From Capitulum mitella (lineage: Eukaryota; Arthropoda; Thecostraca; Pollicipedomorpha; Pollicipedidae): a DNA stretch of 64,000 nucleotides. The stretch's first letter is position 1. Every line of letters starts with the position of its first letter. A program made the translations under genes and the position numbers. The notes beneath the pieces were generated by a model. It searched no databases, was not told the DNA's origin, and worked only from the letters and a program-made list of their open reading frames with translations. Of the stretch, positions 2,678 through 34,960 are shown piece by piece. The stretch covers positions 22,568,596-22,632,595 of the forward strand of contig CP099844.1 of NCBI GenBank assembly GCA_030062745.1. Direction: 5' to 3'.

Positions 2678-3196
2678 CGTGCTTCATCTAAACAGTGTTG
2701 GTGATCATGTTTCCTATACTTTTCAGTACTCTTTTTTTTAATGTATAGAAGCCTCGGATAATGCAGTTGGTAAAAAAATTAATTCGTTAGTCATTTGGCG
2801 ATATGGTAAAGTATGGGCCCACTCAGCCAAAAGAATACAGACAGAATGCAACACAAGAAATGCAGTCTGCTGGTGCCTGCTGACTGTTGCAGTGCTGTAT
2901 TGTGCAGCAGATTTTGCATTATAGTCATTTGAAAGTTTTAGGAACTTGTTCTTTTTATCAGACATGTTGTAAATAATTAGATGATGCTGTCTAGTCATAT
3001 GGTTGTCATGAGTCTGCATTTGCATTATTGTTTGTTTGGTGTTTTTACTGTAGTACGCAGTTATAACACCTTATTCTTGTTCTCCTCAGTCACGTTGTTT
3101 CCATTTGAAGCAATCTGCCCATGCAAGATTTTGAACTGAAGACCCACTTCAGTGTTCTTCTGGCTGCCTTTCCAAGACAAGTATCTGCATCAGGCA
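2678..3196. other. 5' flank of the RNF168-like gene
   Basis: AT-rich stretch between the foldback element and the first coding exon. A splice-acceptor-like CTCCTCAG ends near 3090, so part of 3091-3302 could be a downstream 5' UTR exon of a longer transcript. No conserved coding sequence seen. Confidence 0.4.
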
Positions 3197-3232
3197 TATA
3201 AGGCAGGAGTCCCACCAGCATCACGTGCTCCC
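3197..3232 (+). promoter_or_regulatory. candidate core promoter of the RNF168-like gene
   Basis: TATAAGG lies at 3197-3203 and a palindromic E-box CACGTG at 3222-3227, about 75-105 bases before the first ATG, where GC-rich sequence begins. The spacing would put initiation near 3225-3235. This is motif inference only; a 5' UTR exon spliced near 3090 is the competing model. Confidence 0.25.
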
Positions 3233-3302
3233 TGGTCGTGGTCTAACCTCGCGGCTCGGACCGGGCCGACCGAGCCCGGCCGACGCGGCCCGACCGGGCG
3301 CC

Positions 3303-3603
3303 ATGGCGTCCGAGGAGCGTCTGACGGCCGCCACGGCTACCTGCCCGGTCTGCCTGAGCATCCTGGTGGAGCCGGTCACCATGCCGTGCCAGCACACGCT
3401 GTGCGGGCCCTGCTTCGACTCGACCGTGGAGCAGGCGAGCCTGGCGTGCCCGCTGTGCCGGACGCGCATCTCGGTGTGGCTGCGCCGGGCGCGTCGCTCC
3501 GGCTCGCTGGTCGACCAGGCGCTGTGGGCGCGGCTGCAGCGCGACTTCCCGGCCAAGGTGGAGGCGCGCCTCCAGGGCCGCGACGCCGACTTCTCGGAGG
3601 AGG
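3303..3603 (+). CDS. RNF168: RNF168-like exon 1: RING domain
   Basis: Codes residues 1-100 and ends in phase 1 at donor GTGAGC. It holds the complete C3HC4 RING (C14 to C52) and the following basic stretch (WLRRARRSGSLVDQALW), equivalent to the region with which RNF168 contacts the nucleosome acidic patch. It is the first ATG in its frame. Confidence 0.92.
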
Positions 3604-6600
3604 GTGAGCCGCGCGCACGGCGCCGCCTGCTCGCCCGGCGGCGGCGGGCGTCTTCCCCGCCTCTGGACGAGCTCGGCACGAGCTGGGAAGTGCATGTTTG
3701 CCACTTGAGGAATTGACTTGTTGCTTTGTCCTTTGCCAGTATACCGAGCATCTTAACCGGTAGATGCAGGAAACTGAAGGTAGGTTGTATTTCCGTCATT
3801 GTATGCTGCAACTTTGCGCCTCACTGGTAATTTACATTAGAGTGGCGGTCGCCTGATGGGTATAATACCAACCGCCTCGGCTCACTCGTCGATCTGCAGT
3901 CACTGTTTGACGGCCCGCGGGCCCAGTTCCCGTCAGAGCCCGCTGATGTTCCTGCAGACGTGGAGCTGACGTCCCTCCCTCCGCAGACCTGGAGCCGGTG
4001 CCGCTGCACCTGAGCGAGCCGGGCGAGATCCGGCAGGAGTTCGAGCAGCAGATGGCCTCGGTGATGGTCGAGGAGGAGGACCGGCGGGTGCGCAGCGAGC
4101 GGGCCAGCCGAGAGCTCATCGACCGGCTGCAGGACGAGGCGGCCGCCCGCGCCGAACAGGAGGCCCGCGACGAGGAGCTGGCGCGCGGAGTGATGCGCGA
4201 GGAGGAGCTGGTGAGAATGCAGGACCAGGGGCAGGGTCGGGCGGGAGGAGCTGGTGAGAATGCAGGACCAGGGACAGGGTCGGGCGGGAGGAGCTGGTGA
4301 GGATGCAGGACGGGGGCAGGGTCGGGCGGGAGGAGCTGGTGAGAATGCAGGACCAGGGGCAGGGTCGGGCGGGAGGAGCTGGTGAGGATGCAGGACGGGG
4401 TCGGGGCAGGGCGGGAGGAGCTGGTGAGAATGCAGGATAGGGGCGAGGCCGGGCGGGAGGAGGAGCTGGTGGGGATTCGGGACCAGGGGCGGGGCTGGGC
4501 GGGAGGAGGAGCTGGGGAGGATGCAGGATAGGGGTGGGCTGGGCGGGAGGAGGAGCTGGGGAGGATGCAGGATAGGGGTGGGCTGGGCGGGAGGAGGAGC
4601 TGGTGAGGATGCAGGGGCGGGGCCGGGGGGGAGGTGGAGCTGGTGAGGATGCAGGACCAGGGGCAGGGTTGGACGGAAAGAGTGAATGAAAATGCGAGTG
4701 TAGGGGAGAAGAGATAGTTCTTCATTTGGAAAGGTTCGGTGGGACTGGTGGCGGACGCAACATTTGGTTCCCGGAACTTCATCGTGTTTTGGTTAGTTCC
4801 GTTTTGATAGCGATGGGCCCCAGCCTGGTTCTGGATATGTCCTGTGGGATCATTTTTTTAGTTTATATGGGTTCATTTCAGACAAAGAAAATGTGGGTTT
4901 TCATCGGTTTGCCTGGATTATTGTCCGATCTTAGGCTTGTGGAAGAGCTGACATATTTGTGTTGTCACTAGATGTACCTTTTAATCCCGCAATGTCTCCT
5001 CAGTTTGTTTTGCCAAGTGTGCCTGGCGGTGGCGGGGACAGGAAGACTGGTACTGGTGGAGACAGAAAGACTGGAGCGAAGCAAAGGCCCTCGAGCACCC
5101 CTGTCAGGGGGCCGATGGACGTCTATATCGGTACGTCTCCAAGTCCTGCCTCCATCGGAATCTTCGAAACGGGCTCCAGCTGTGTGAAATCATTGAATCG
5201 TGCCATCAGTGGTGGGGCCATTATACTACCGTGCTTGCCGGTAAGTTGTTACGGACAGATGAATGACATCCCAGACAGTTCTACGCCGGCTCGAGGCTGT
5301 GCCGGTGGTTGGTGAATGTGCTATGCCGTCGCAGGCCAGCTGACTCCCCGCGTCGGTGGGAAGCGGCCCGTCTCGCCCATCCGGCCCCGGTCGGGCCTGG
5401 CCGGGACCGCCTCCGGGGCCTACGTCTCTCCAACCGGCAGCTGCAAGGAGAGTAAGTGACCTGCCCGGCGCTGCCGCCCGCAGCGGCGGCACAACTCACA
5501 GCAGTCTGCGTCTAGATAGATGCCTTGAATGCATGGTGTTCTTCGCCAGTGCTTTGCATTCTGTTTGAGTAAAACCATGTCCAGGAAAAAGAAAATGATT
5601 CTGAACACTTCAATTTGTCAAACTTATATCAGAGCAAACATCTACTATATGTTGTTACGTAATCACGGGCACATTTGTCCTCTTTGGAAATTGACCTTTT
5701 TTGCCTCAGATGAGGCTTTGTTTGTTACTACTGCCACTGCATTGATAGTGGCCCGATATCTGATCGCGCGATCACCTGCACTCAACGAGCTGACGGCTGA
5801 TCTGTTCTCTGATGCCCGCCGTGGGCGGTGCTGAGTGTCTGACACTGCGCAACCGCGCTGGCCTGCCCAGACAGCGACCCGGCCGTGGCGGCGGAGCGGA
5901 CCGCCAGCGGCATGTCCACAGCCAGCGCGGACAGCATTGGCGCCGAGTTCAGTCACTTCAAGCCCATCAGGACGGTGCCGAGGACGCCGCCCAAGCGCCG
6001 GCTCGGTCAGTGGCCCGCCTTCCCCTCACCGTCCGTCCTCTGACCCACAGCCTGGTCCGGCCTGGTTAGGGCTCTGTCCCGCCCCTGACCGTCCATCTCT
6101 GACCCACAGCCTGGTCCGACCTGGTTAGGGCTCTGTCCCACCCCTGACCGTCCGTCTCTGACCCACAGCCTGGTGCCCAGTCAGGGCTCCGTCCCTGACC
6201 CGCAGTCCGGTCTGGCCTGGCCAGGGCCTTGTCCCACCCCTGACCGTCCGTCTCTGACCCGCAGCCTGGTGCTCAGTCAGGGCTCCGTCCCTGACCCGCA
6301 GTCCGGTCTGGCCTGGCCAGGGCCTTGTCCCACCCCTGACCGTCCGTCTCTGAGCCGCAGCCTGGTCCGGCTCAGTTAGGGCTCTGTCCCGCCCCTGACC
6401 GTCCTTCCCTGACCCGCAGCCTGGTCCGGCTCAGTCAGGGCTCTGTCCCGCCCCTGACCGTCCGTCTCTGACCCGCAGCCTGGTCCGGCTCAGTTAGGGC
6501 TCTGTCCCACCCCTGACCGTCCGTCTCTGAGCCGCAGCCTGGTCCGGCTCAGTTAGGCTCTGCCGCAGCCTGGTCCGCTCTGTCCCGCCTGCCGGCGTCT

Positions 6601-8642
6601 CTGACCCTGCTGCCTCAGTTAGGGCTCTGTCCCGCCTCCGGCGTCTCGGTCCATCGCCTAGGCCGCGCACTGGCCACAGACGTGGAGTTGCGAATCCATG
6701 CCCGTGGAGCAGGTGCGGCGTTATGTTGCGCTGGAGCGGTATCTTTTGCCTACTTCTCTTGGTGTTTGTATGGGTGTTTTTTTTTCTGATCAACACTGGG
6801 TCAGTGCGGATTCGGTTTACCTCGGACTGATTGGTGTGTACCTGGGACTGACGGGCCCGGTGTACCTCCGACTGACTGGTGGTGTACGGGAGGGCCCGGT
6901 GTACAGCCGACTGACGGACCCTGTGCTCCTCAGACGGCGGCCTGGTGGAGCCGGCCCTGGTCCACACCGTACCACGCCACCTGAACCACCAGCCGGCCAG
7001 TTCCTCAGTCTCCGAGCGGCGCCCCCCGGCCACCAGGTGAGACGCCGCCCGAGGTCGTCCCTGCCCTCCGGCGCTGCGGCGAGGCGGGTAGCCGGCGCTC
7101 GGCGGCTGCCAGGCGGTCAGAACGGTGGGCGCTGGGGACTGTTGGAGACAGTGGCCTACGAGGAGTGTCAGGCTAAACGTTGTGCAGTGACTCTCCTTCC
7201 AGATTGGTGGCAGAATCCACCATCACACGGAAAGGCTGTGATTTTTTATGCTGCGCATGTTGTGTTTTGTGGCTTGTGATCTTCAGTTTTTTTTACTTCG
7301 CCCATAACAGTCGTTAAAGGGAGCCGATAATCGGCAACTGATCATCAGCATAGTCCATTAATTTTCCGTGTCGTCCAGTCATTGTCAGAGGGCGGCCAGC
7401 GTCCCTGGAGCCAGAATGTTTTGGGCCTATACCCCGCAGTGCGTGTGGGCTGGGTGGCCTCACTCTTTCCACGGATTCCGGAGTCTGACGTTAGCGGGAC
7501 CGTCTGCGATTAAGCTGGACTGTCTGGTTTCAGACGCGGCCTGAACTCTGAAGAGATACGGGCTCGTCTGACGGAGGAAGAGGAAGATCCCTTGATTACA
7601 GGTAGCTGACCCGCGGTTAGACGCAGCGGCGCCTGCGCCGTGTCGGTGGAATGCGCGGCACTCGCCGCCAGCGTAGTTCAGAACCATTCATCGGCTGTTG
7701 TGGGGTGTGATGCATGGATGTGCACGATCTTTTGAAACGTTAGGCAGGTGACGACCATAAGGAAATATGTCATTTCTAGGCCAGATTATCTGAACCGACA
7801 TGTCTACATGTCACGAAGTTGTTGAGGCTCTTATTCCCACGTTTTCTGCCGTAAGTGTACTGTTATCAGACGTTAATGGCAGGTCATCAGCCTGGTGTCT
7901 CTCGAGCGGCAGCTGTCGATCTGCCGTCCGTCGCTGTCAGCTCACCCTTGCCCTCCTGTCTGGCAGATGGCGCTGCGGCCGGCGGCACGAAGCGGCCGGC
8001 GGACGCGCCGCCGCCGGAGCGCCGGCCCAGGAAGCGGCCCGCCCCGTCCCCGGCCCCGGCGCCCGACGCCGAGATCGACCTCACCTCGGCCGAGCTGCTG
8101 GAGGAGCAGCGCCGCGCCGAGCGCCAGCTGCAGCTGGAGCTCGCCGACCGCCGGCTGGCCGAGCAGCTGCAGCGCGAGCTCAACAGGCAGCAGCCGGTGA
8201 GCCGCGCCAGGGGCCCTATTCGCCGTTTCGTTGCCCCAGCCGCCGCCGATGCTGTCTTATGGCTGCCACGGCGTAGACACTGTGCTGTCCGCGGTGCCTT
8301 TGAGAACGTGGCAGTGGTAGTACGGGCTTAGATTCAAAGGGAACTTGATAATACGTCGATGGTCTTGCCATGTACCCGGTTCTAAGGAATCTGAAAACTT
8401 GTTCTCCAACCGGTGGATGTCGAGCGAACGGCTCCGTCATTTAACACGAGTTATGACCAGGTGTGCGTGCGTGCTGCTGTACCACGCTGTGCCCTGTCCG
8501 CCAGGTGGACCGGAGCAAGGGCAGCGCGGACGCCTACAGCCTGCGGCGGCCGGCCGGCCAGCGGCGGCCGCAGCGCCGCGACCGCAGCCAGCTCTCCATC
8601 CAGGAGAGCCTGCGCCGCTCCCGGGGCCGCGCCGGCCGGTAG
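3303..8642 (+). CDS. RNF168: RNF168-like E3 ubiquitin ligase, nine exons, 480 aa
   Basis: Exons 3303-3603, 3987-4210, 5004-5130, 5335-5451, 5871-6005, 6934-7036, 7534-7601, 7967-8196 and 8505-8642 join in one frame (1443 nt); all eight introns are GT-AG. The C3HC4 RING uses C14, C17, C29, H31, C34, C37, C49 and C52. LRM1 (about 103-122), UMI (136-152) and MIU1 (DEELARGV core, 162-169) form the first ubiquitin module; MIU2 (RRLAEQLQREL, 420-430) and LRM2 (KGSADAYSLR, 440-449) form the second. Order and motif wording match vertebrate RNF168 (571 aa), which ubiquitinates H2A K13/K15 beside DNA breaks and binds that mark to recruit repair factors. A bipartite basic NLS is at 367-383. RNF169, the paralogue, relies mainly on the C-terminal module, so two intact modules favour RNF168. 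The start ATG sits in GCGCCATGG context. The low-similarity middle (residues 176-359) is the least certain part of the exon chain. Confidence 0.9.
3987..4210 (+). CDS. RNF168: RNF168-like exon 2: LRM1, UMI and MIU1
   Basis: Codes residues 101-175 after acceptor CCGCAG, ending in phase 0 at donor GTGAGA. LSEPGEIRQEF parallels the LSKPGELRREY segment of vertebrate RNF168; RASRELIDRL fits the UMI helix; DEELARGVM fits MIU1, with valine at the usual last leucine. The last ten bases of this exon start the minisatellite described at 4201. Confidence 0.9.
4201..4675 (+). repeat. minisatellite made of copies of the exon 2 splice-donor junction
   Basis: Eleven head-to-tail units of 40-46 bases, unit starts at 4201, 4244, 4287, 4329, 4372, 4414, 4456, 4502, 4546, 4590 and 4630. 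The first unit begins with the last ten coding bases of exon 2 and the true donor; each later unit repeats GGAGGAGCTG followed by GTGAGA or GTGAGG. Nine of eleven units keep GT at the donor position; the units at 4502 and 4546 have GGGGAGG instead. Reading through from exon 2 meets a stop at about 4300. Clearly an in situ amplification of a gene fragment. Confidence 0.95.
5004..5130 (+). CDS. RNF168: RNF168-like exon 3: glycine-rich linker
   Basis: Acceptor CTCCTCAG, donor GTACGT; phase 0 in, phase 1 out. Codes residues 176-217, a G/K/R-rich linker with a short internal duplication (GGDRKTG twice). Little family similarity is expected here; support comes from phase match on both sides and consensus splice sites. 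Confidence 0.7.
5335..5451 (+). CDS. RNF168: RNF168-like exon 4: linker with QLTPR motif
   Basis: Acceptor GTCGCAG, donor GTAAGT; phase 1 in and out. Codes residues 218-256. QLTPRVGGKRPVSP recalls the YLTPKSQ segment of vertebrate RNF168. Both splice sites are close to consensus. Confidence 0.75.
5871..6005 (+). CDS. RNF168: RNF168-like exon 5: conserved-looking FKPIRT segment
   Basis: Acceptor CTGCCCAG, donor GTCAGT; phase 1 in and out. Codes residues 257-301, with EFSHFKPIRTVPRTPPKRRL at the end, a dense non-repetitive basic/proline segment that reads as a short functional motif. The donor is followed at once by the intron 5 minisatellite. Confidence 0.8.
6041..6570 (+). repeat. intron 5 minisatellite carrying acceptor-like ends
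   Basis: About nine copies of a 59-60 base unit, with a 96-base higher-order block (about 6170-6270) itself repeated. Each unit has a pyrimidine-rich run followed by CTGACCCGCAG or CTGACCCACAG, which is what a 3' splice site looks like. Later copies decay toward 6640. All the sequence lies inside intron 5; the acceptor actually used by the inferred gene model is at 6933, in unique DNA. Confidence 0.9.
6934..7036 (+). CDS. RNF168: RNF168-like exon 6: linker
   Basis: Acceptor CTCCTCAG, donor GTGAGA; phase 1 in, phase 2 out. Codes residues 302-335 (LVEPALVHTVPRHLNHQ region). No known motif. Included because frame and splice sites chain correctly to both neighbours. Confidence 0.65.
7534..7601 (+). 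CDS. RNF168: RNF168-like exon 7: short acidic exon
   Basis: Acceptor GGTTTCAG, donor GTAGCT; phase 2 in, phase 1 out. Codes residues 336-358 (GLNSEEIRARLTEEEEDPLI). Small and acidic; the donor is the weakest of the eight. It is the only stretch found that bridges phase 2 to phase 1 between exons 6 and 8. Confidence 0.6.
7967..8196 (+). CDS. RNF168: RNF168-like exon 8: NLS and MIU2
   Basis: Acceptor CTGGCAG, donor GTGAGC; phase 1 in, phase 0 out. Codes residues 359-435: a bipartite basic NLS (KRPADAPPPERRPRKRP), then a long charged helix ending in RRLAEQLQREL, the MIU2 ubiquitin-binding helix (compare RLLALQLQKEV in vertebrate RNF168). Confidence 0.9.
8505..8642 (+). CDS. RNF168: RNF168-like exon 9: LRM2 and C-terminus
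   Basis: Acceptor TCCGCCAG; ends at TAG 8640-8642. Codes residues 436-480. KGSADAYSLR matches the LRM2 targeting motif of RNF168 (KGSPDEYHLR), which with MIU2 reads ubiquitinated H2A. The tail is very basic (RRPQRRDRSQLSIQESLRRS) and much shorter than in vertebrates. Confidence 0.9.
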   Translation: MDRSKGSADAYSLRRPAGQRRPQRRDRSQLSIQESLRRSRGRAGR

Positions 8643-9279
8643 GACCGCCCCGCGGCGGCGGCCGGCCCGCGCGCGTGCGTCGGGGCGGCGCCGCTATCTG
8701 AGAACCTGGCTGTGGCGCCGTCTTGCGAGTAGCCGCGGCCGCGCCGTGCTGGCTGGGAGGGCGGTGCAGTTTCCGATCGGACCTCGGGTCTTTAAACCTT
8801 GATACTTTTGTGTTGTAACGGTGGACGATACGTTGTTGCCGCCGCTGGCGTGACGGTGGCTTGTTTCACGGGAGGCGTTTCTCGGCGACGAGGTGGCCTC
8901 GGCGGGTGGCCTTTTTAACACTGGTTGCTTCCGGGTGCCATAATACACTGCCGTTTCGGCCGAACAGGTCTTTGTTAATCACCGGTTGAATGTGCCCGTG
9001 ATTTTAGCTTGCTCGTTCATTAGCTGTGCCGTTCCACGTTTGCCTTTCTCTTACGTGGGCCTGGTGGGATGAGGTCTTTCCACTTCATGTTCTGCCTTCC
9101 TGCGCCAACGTTTGTCGACAGGAATGCTCACAGTGGTGGTAGTTCCAAGCGTGGCAGTGACCCAGAAACACGCCGTTAGCGTGTCCTTAGGCCCCGGCTA
9201 TTTCATTATGTTGTTTTTGTATGTCGGTGGAGGCGCTGCATTGCTGAAGTATTATGCATTTAAACCTCACGACGTCAAA
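8643..9279 (+). other. 3' flank or 3' UTR of the RNF168-like gene
   Basis: GC-rich for about 150 bases after the stop, then mixed composition. No AATAAA is seen in the first kilobase, so the transcript end cannot be placed. Confidence 0.4.
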
Positions 9280-17774: not shown

Positions 17775-18325
17775 TAGTTTCAGAACAAAGCCTAGACGGC
17801 TAGTTTGTCCCTGACGATGTAAACAGCGAGGACTCGAATCTGACTGAAGGGAGAATTTGGTGCATTAGCAGAAGAAGGTCTGAAGCTTAGGGTAAAGTAA
17901 CGTTATGATAAAAAGAGACAAACATGGAACTGCACGTCTACGTGCCCGCTTCAAGTCAGGCTCGTAGCGTAACCCTCAGGTCAAAAGTTAATCACCTGCA
18001 CAAGAGCAGCAAAAAGAAGAAAAATGCTGTTGCTAGTGTTCCGTGCAGTGCAGAGACTTCCTGTGGTGACAGAGCGGGTCTGCCGCCGTCTAGAGCCGCT
18101 CTTTCCGCGATGTGGCGGTACTCTCACCCGCAAAGGGTCTGCCGTGGCGCTGTACGGTGGTTTTGCGGCGCTCGTCTTCAGAAGTGATTTCCAGCCTTCT
18201 GTTCTGAAGTGGGTTTGTGGCGTTCTGCTCCTGCAACGGGCCCACAACGGGCCCAGCTCCGACAGGATGTGTACCTGTGTCCGACAGCCTCTGTCGCTAT
18301 ACCCTTGCGCGTGTGTAACCGCTAC

Positions 18326-18691
18326 TACCTCTGGGTGTGCAGCAGTCTGTCACCAGCCCTACCTCTGGATGTGTAGCGGTCTGTGTCCGGCCCTACCTCT
18401 GGATGTGTAGCGGTCTGTGTCCGGCCCTACCTCTGGATGTGCAGCGGTCTGTGTCCGGCCCTACCTCTGGATGTGTAGCGGTCTGTGTCCGGCCCTACCT
18501 CTGGGTGTGCAGCGGTCTGTGTCCGGCCCTATCTCTTGGTGTGTAGCGGTCTGTGTCCGGCCCTTCCTCTGGATGTGCAGCGGTCTGTGTCTGGCCCTAC
18601 CTCTGGGTGTGCAGCGGTCTCTGTCCGGCCCTTCCTCTTGATGTGCAGCGGTCTGTGTCTGGCCCTACCACTGGGTGTGCAGCGGTCTGAC
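18326..18691 (+). repeat. 34 bp minisatellite, about 11 copies
   Basis: Exact 34-base periodicity: ten full units from 18326 to 18665 and a partial eleventh. Unit pattern is TACCTCTGGATGTGTAGCGG followed by TCTGTGTCCGGCCC, with few substitutions. None of the three plus-strand frames contains a stop, so the same peptide pattern cycles through all three frames. No sign of translation. Confidence 0.95.
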
Positions 18692-34474: not shown

Positions 34475-34960
34475 ATAGGCGATGATACACATCCTGACAC
34501 AGGCGGTGATACAATCTGGGAACAAACGGCGGAGCGTGTCCGGACACAGGCGATGATACACGTCTGGACACAGATGTAATGCATGTCGAGATACAGGCGA
34601 CGAGACACGTCCTGACACTGGCGGTGATACACATCCTGACACAGGCGGTGATACACATCCTGACACAGACGGTGGTACACATCCTGACACAGGCAGTGAT
34701 ACACGTCCGGACATAGGCGATGATGCACGTCTAGACTCAGGCATAATGCATGTCGAGATACAGGCGACGAGACACGTCCTGACACTGGCGGTGATACGCG
34801 TCCTGACACAGGCGGTGACACACATCCTGACACAGGCGGTGGTACACATCCTGACACAGACGTCGAGACACGTCCTGACACAGGCGGTGATGCACGCCCG
34901 GACGCAGACGGTGATGCTCGTCCGGACACAGGCGATGATGCACGCCCGAACATGGACAGC
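34475..34960 (-). repeat. 24 bp minisatellite with higher-order structure, about 20 copies
   Basis: Unit pattern ACACATCCTGACACAGGCGG plus TGAT, 24 bases, about 20 degenerate copies. Because the unit is three times eight, each minus-strand frame gives an eight-residue periodic peptide (VRMCITAC-like). A seven-unit block (about 167 bases) recurs: GCATGTCGAG begins at 34581 and again at 34748 with matching neighbours. Not judged coding. Confidence 0.93.

Follow-up and report, generated by a model that had tools for sequence, protein, structure and literature searches.

In Capitulum mitella, the end of one coding exon and the splice donor that follows it stand at the head of a row of tandem copies. 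This raises the question of how a splice donor came to be multiplied in this way, what the extra donors would do to the mRNA, and whether the case is an isolated one. The gene lies on contig C6, in a stretch of 64 kb (C6:22568596-22632595, hereafter the window, whose positions are used throughout), and genome-wide searches covered 477 Mb in 16 contigs.

RNF168 and its repeated donor

We modelled the gene as nine exons on the forward strand, picking splice sites from consensus and reading frame. Exon 1 (3303..3603) carries the ATG and the RING and ends at the donor G|GTGAGC; it matches RNF168 in the PDB (E 3e-28 over 3303-3602) and has a coding score of 25. Exon 2 (3987..4210; coding score 27) is in-frame to exons 1 and 3, is covered by the PDB RNF168 alignment and ends in phase 0 at CTG|GTGAGA. 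The model continues with exons 3 (5004..5130), 4 (5335..5451), 5 (5871..6005) and 6 (6934..7036), a small exon 7 required by the frame (7534..7601), exon 8 (7967..8196), also within the PDB alignment and holding a stretch that we take to be like MIU2, and exon 9 (8505..8642), which ends at the stop codon. Joined, the nine exons form a single open frame of 480 amino acids, which depends on 4210 being the last base of exon 2. The 480-aa model aligns with PDB RNF168 8txv over residues 11-452 (E 6.2e-41); its N-terminal RING resembles that of the solved RNF168, and the similarity reaches the C-terminal region and takes in most of the chain. A Pfam scan of exon 2 and one late ORF gave no match. Judged by this protein similarity, the gene carrying the array, described as RNF168-like in the initial annotation, is RNF168.

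The minisatellite occupies 4201..4676 (TRF: period 43, 11.0 copies, 84% matches), and its TRF score of 495 is far above chance level. Each unit comprises the last 10 bases of exon 2, the 5' splice site and about 33 intron bases, and alignment places the unit starts at 4201, 4244, 4287, 4329, 4372, 4414, 4459, 4505, 4549, 4593 and 4633. The opening ten bases of the units are GGAGGAGCTG, the final ten coding bases of exon 2, with one mismatch in unit 11. The donor GT is kept in nine of the 11 units (4211, 4254, 4297, 4339, 4382, 4424, 4469, 4603 and 4643), as GTGAGA four times, GTGAGG four times and GTGGGG once, with 40-46 bp from donor to donor. Pairwise identity between units ranges from 67 to 100%; units 1 and 4 are identical, as are units 8 and 9 (4505..4592), in which the GT has become GG (4515 and 4559). 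Because these two units do not differ, the GG is probably a single mutation that was duplicated afterwards. The initial annotation thus described the array well: the final exon-2 bases and the 5' splice site have been copied to 11 units, nine of which keep GT at the donor position, with AGA or AGG following in most. Its start for the array, 4201, stands as well, while TRF moves the end from 4675 to 4676.

The remainder of intron 2 (4677..5003), including the acceptor of exon 3, has no array reported by TRF. Searched as DNA against the genome, 3951-4800 recovered its own locus and, apart from that, one weak match (71%) on C10 to a 20-bp array that is C-rich as read, and an Rfam scan of 3000-9000 gave 0 matches. 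The gene holds a second minisatellite at 6022-6562 (59-bp unit, about nine copies). It begins 16 bp past the donor of exon 5, whose GT is at 6006, and its unit repeats an acceptor-like stretch ending CCGCAG or CCACAG.

Only the first of the nine donors, GTGAGA at 4211..4216, yields the 480-aa protein. All eight distal GT donors (4254..4648) lead to a premature stop, at codon 356 for the donor at 4254, at codon 249 for that at 4297 and at codon 205 for all six later ones. The last of these is a TGA at 4298..4300, which lies in the exon-2 frame within unit 3, overlaps the third donor and ends the isoforms of the fourth donor onward. The initial annotation had expected a distal donor usually to meet a stop; the stop is there, and "usually" understates it. 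By the usual rule, premature stops well before the last junction are targets of nonsense-mediated decay, and because these stops fall 280-1122 nt upstream of the last junction in the model, mRNAs from the eight distal donors would be such targets.

The same annotation proposed that copy number tunes the amount of full-length ligase: the donors would compete for U1, and the number of copies would set the share of transcripts that end early and decay, and with it RNF168 dose. Nine GT donors are available for such a competition, eight of them GTGAG and with a similar match to consensus, and every distal choice ends in a stop well before the last junction. Distal donors would lower the full-length product, and a reduced RNF168 dose by this route is possible in principle. 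That part of the proposal survives, but the tuning does not fare as well. Across the unit, conservation is no higher in the nine donor columns than elsewhere (of 38 windows nine columns wide, 14 score as high or higher), two copies have lost their GT, and similar arrays stand at exons of functionally unrelated genes, which speaks against a dial specific to one gene. We consider a splicing rheostat at RNF168 unlikely.

Donor arrays across the genome

Genome-wide, we counted sites where a donor word occurs in triplicate with the spacing of an array, taking the reversed word, of the same base composition, as control; the resulting counts are of matches, not of arrays, and a long array counts many times. 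GGTGAG gave 5129 triplets against 1928 for its reverse (2668+2461 vs 1007+921), CAGGTGAG 1160 against 86 (641+519 vs 65+21), AGGTGAGT 168 against 20 (108+60 vs 10+10) and CAGGTGAGT 111 against 0 (64+47 vs 0+0). GGTAAG showed no excess, with 367 triplets against 347 (213+154 vs 179+168), counts that are inflated by telomere-like repeats; interstitial (TTAGG)-like repeats of telomere type are frequent among the GGTAAG matches listed on C1, C2 and C3. Single GGTGAG sites in the repeat-masked window were not in excess either (23, and 28 for the reversed word). Counted by hand as clusters on C1, GGTGAG arrays number 15 in the first 5.6 Mb (2.7/Mb) and reversed ones 30 in 38 Mb (0.8/Mb).

A codon score trained on eight kinase exons (L083-L090) was applied to the 30 codons preceding each array, with 3000 random positions of the window as the null, which includes the window's real exons and is conservative for that reason. 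At P<0.02, 0.03 and 0.07, coding-like sequence stood upstream of 13, 16 and 18 of 22 AGGTGAGT arrays (the first 100 of 168 matches form 23 clusters, of which one was dropped because it had the same matched sequence as another), and of 1, 2 and 2 of 11 arrays of the reversed control TGAGTGGA (11 of 12 clusters, the twelfth being a donor array). The corresponding figures were 9, 10 and 10 of 15 for GGTGAG (every cluster in the first 100 of 5129 matches) and 0, 1 and 2 of eight for reversed GAGTGG (from 30 clusters listed, the nine with loci cut, minus one that doubles as a donor array). At P<0.03, one-sided Fisher tests gave 0.004 for AGGTGAGT (16/22 vs 2/11) and 0.019 for GGTGAG (10/15 vs 1/8), the two donor sets having locus L065 in common. 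GGTAAG arrays were at exon ends in 2 of 15 cases at every cut-off, in short stretches (341-391 bases) in which some true array starts may have been missed; these 15 were picked by hand among the matches listed, leaving aside telomere-like, simple and some irregular arrays.

Pfam identified several of the adjoining exons. Two of 10 ORFs abutting arrays matched, one to Neur_chan_memb of a ligand-gated channel (1.5e-34) and one to ALMS (8.6e-8). Among 10 exon fragments abutting arrays, three had no match and seven did: F-box-like (4.4e-17), Dynein_heavy (2.2e-11), Sec1 (2.5e-10), MITF/TFEB (1.6e-8), Dor1 (9.5e-8), PDZ (3.2e-7) and, weakly and below the cut-off, ERM (0.0094). The exon with the MITF/TFEB match, at L104, had been overlooked by the codon-score test. 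At several arrays the unit visibly starts within the exon, as in the F-box gene at L063 (35-bp unit) and at L066 (45-bp unit).

Donor arrays occur on many contigs and at exons of unrelated genes, and the RNF168 array is one member of a large class in this genome. If the 5.6 Mb of one contig are typical, exon-end GGTGAG arrays, at about 1.8/Mb, would number some 850 genome-wide. To an order of magnitude, they are roughly 5- to 12-fold above the expectation from other GGTGAG sites, an estimate that takes as inputs 21,899 genes in C. mitella (PMC8416341), 7.48 exons per transcript as reported for Pollicipes (PMC8917513) and an assumed 20-50% of donors being GGTGAG.

Individual arrays differ in their apparent history. 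The CAGGTGAGT array at C14:21919433-21920467 has 36-bp units that are near-identical across about 1 kb and looks recently expanded. Identical matched donor-array sequence is present at C6:6607092 and 6633480, 26 kb apart, as if a piece of a gene had been duplicated together with its array. At L065 (C1:5574500-5575200), an ERM/merlin-like exon precedes a 39-bp donor array, with an apparent frame break near the exon end.

These counts bear on the reading that a G-rich minisatellite touches one exon end by chance. The unit is indeed G-rich, and tandem repeats are common in the window, where TRF reports 33 rows in 64 kb, some of them for one and the same array. Against this, triplicated full donor words exceed their reversed controls by as far as 111 to 0, and coding-like sequence adjoins 16 of 22 arrays in one tested set and 10 of 15 in the other, so that coincidence is very unlikely. 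Two other minisatellites of the window, at 18325-18689 (34 bp x 10.7) and 34477-34944 (24 bp x 19.6), have no obvious flanking exon by eye on either strand.

If distal donors were used and the units translated, the arrays would instead be extensible exons that add repeats to the protein, and productive use of this sort would be expected to favour spacings divisible by three. Some arrays elsewhere are spaced by multiples of three and are open where read. One is L066 (C1:4796700-4797500), a 45-bp donor array 3' of a coding-looking exon with matches from C1:4794690 to 4796791, about 2.1 kb; the roughly 128 bp read stay open in the exon frame, and translation is possible in principle. Among AGGTGAGT arrays judged by eye to be at exon ends, 13 of 18 had hand-read spacings divisible by three (excluding L107, whose spacing is mixed, and L095-L097, which are not exonic), a pattern seen post hoc. 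The proportion was 15 of 28 for both donor sets with RNF168, and 2 of 10 in other donor sets and 1 of 6 in further CAGGTGAG clusters. With the prediction fixed beforehand, held-out clusters past C8:13.7 Mb gave 4 of 11 where chance gives one in three (or 5 of 11 with a mixed 32/33 array included), a small set from 100 of 111 matches listed, so that one final cluster may have escaped the count, and for which exon adjacency was not part of the selection. Pooling both AGGTGAGT halves gave 17 of 29 (P 0.005), which counts against a purely silent array because such an array would show no such lean; pooling everything gave 20 of 45 (P 0.08). The frame-keeping lean in AGGTGAGT arrays was not reproduced in the small held-out set, though it may hold for strong donors. 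At RNF168 itself the 43-bp unit is no multiple of three and, with the TGA at 4298, rules an extensible exon out; as an account of the arrays it is highly improbable.

Finally, long near-identical tandem repeats are prone to assembly error, but the RNF168 units diverge from one another and similar arrays lie on many contigs, and it is extremely unlikely that assembly made the array or distorted its copy number.

Arrays of acceptors are a natural counterpart. The acceptor word YYYYYNCAG gave 6799 triplets against 4616 reversed, a weaker excess than that of the donor words. A coding check downstream of 13 acceptor-like arrays, the clear ones chosen by eye from about 42 clusters among the C1 matches listed, found no convincing exon start at any of them; L126 reached P 0.029 but reads as a low-complexity repeat. 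The acceptor word is far less specific than the donor words, which makes this test weaker than the donor test, and the results for this reason support an asymmetry between donor and acceptor arrays without proving it.

A probable self-concealing duplication

The RNF168 array is probably an intronic minisatellite that arose by tandem duplication across the exon-2 donor and conceals itself, and the genome-wide class probably has the same nature. By this account, slippage or unequal exchange would have duplicated, repeatedly and in tandem, a segment of about 43 bp that runs from the last bases of exon 2 across its 5' splice site. The first copy would serve as the true exon end and donor and give the 480-aa RNF168, and copies 2-11 would fall within intron 2 and be removed by splicing. 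With the upstream donor still joined to the same acceptor, the mRNA would be as before, added copies would be nearly neutral and the array would be free to expand; rare use of a distal donor would produce mRNA prone to nonsense-mediated decay, a small leak. The same event over an acceptor would lengthen the exon in the mRNA and would be purged. Donor arrays would thus accumulate because their extra copies land in the intron, and exon-touching arrays would be found at donors because acceptor duplications alter the mRNA.

Several observations weigh on this account. The choice of the first donor in cells is a supposition of the model, and among equal donors in vitro the intron-proximal copy is often favoured, which counts against it. 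GGTAAG arrays, with no excess and few exon ends among the 15 chosen, may also count against it. A neutral filter accounts for donors as opposed to acceptors, but not alone for the roughly 5- to 12-fold excess over other sites, to which donors acting as mutational hot spots, or a mild benefit of extra donors, may add.

A more far-reaching version would have hundreds of donor-seeded minisatellites (about 850 for GGTGAG), with exon ends as hot spots, form ladders that shift splicing in many genes and yield non-productive or extended mRNA in amounts that depend on copy number and vary between individuals. We regard this version, taken as a whole, as rather unlikely.

Significance and known systems

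Under self-concealing duplication, these arrays would be a hidden form of mutation: duplication of a donor leaves the mRNA as it is and can grow unseen, as duplication of an acceptor cannot. The account predicts a donor/acceptor asymmetry among the minisatellites of intron-rich genomes. A genome rich in donor arrays would also be a natural experiment on splice-site choice, in which the spliceosome meets near-identical 5' splice sites some 20-50 bases apart while the exon context stays constant, and there is a practical bearing on gene prediction and the calling of splice variants in array-rich genomes. Repeated donors in single genes are known; their presence in very large number in one genome is the step beyond. 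In the literature searched, where coverage of subscription journals is thin, a genome-wide class of donor arrays was not found.

Other systems share parts of the arrangement. In the AGGT model of intron gain, an exonic AGGT segment is tandem-duplicated and the repeat supplies both splice sites (PMC4974935). The duplicated segment includes a donor GT there as here, but in RNF168 the acceptor of intron 2, before 5004, lies outside the repeat, and the array does not fit an AGGT-type intron gain. In duplicated human genes, internal tandem repeats have been described where exons meet introns, and in recent paralogs they were linked to new introns and alternative transcripts (PMC2812944); the expansion of a minisatellite at such a boundary is common to both cases, whereas here it is an existing donor that is multiplied, and across unrelated genes. 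Earthworm metallothionein genes likewise have minisatellite-length repeats in an intron, although, unlike for the RNF168 array, the available part of that account describes no repeated splice donor (PMC12783039).

The closest parallel is human IFI6. Two downstream repeat units of its minisatellite have been reported as used donors (PMC4526556), and in RNF168, too, tandem units carry donors derived from an exon end (nine of 11 with GT). The RNF168 array differs in its spacing of 40-46 bp and in that all eight distal donors would lead to a premature stop. The IFI6 unit measures 12 bp and hence keeps the frame, and the copy number of this minisatellite varies in the population. That the minisatellite of this gene (also 6-16 or G1P3) carries several splice donor sites was reportedly described by Turri in 1995. 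The RNF168 array therefore looks to be of a kind already known from human IFI6, and what looks new is the abundance of such arrays in this genome.
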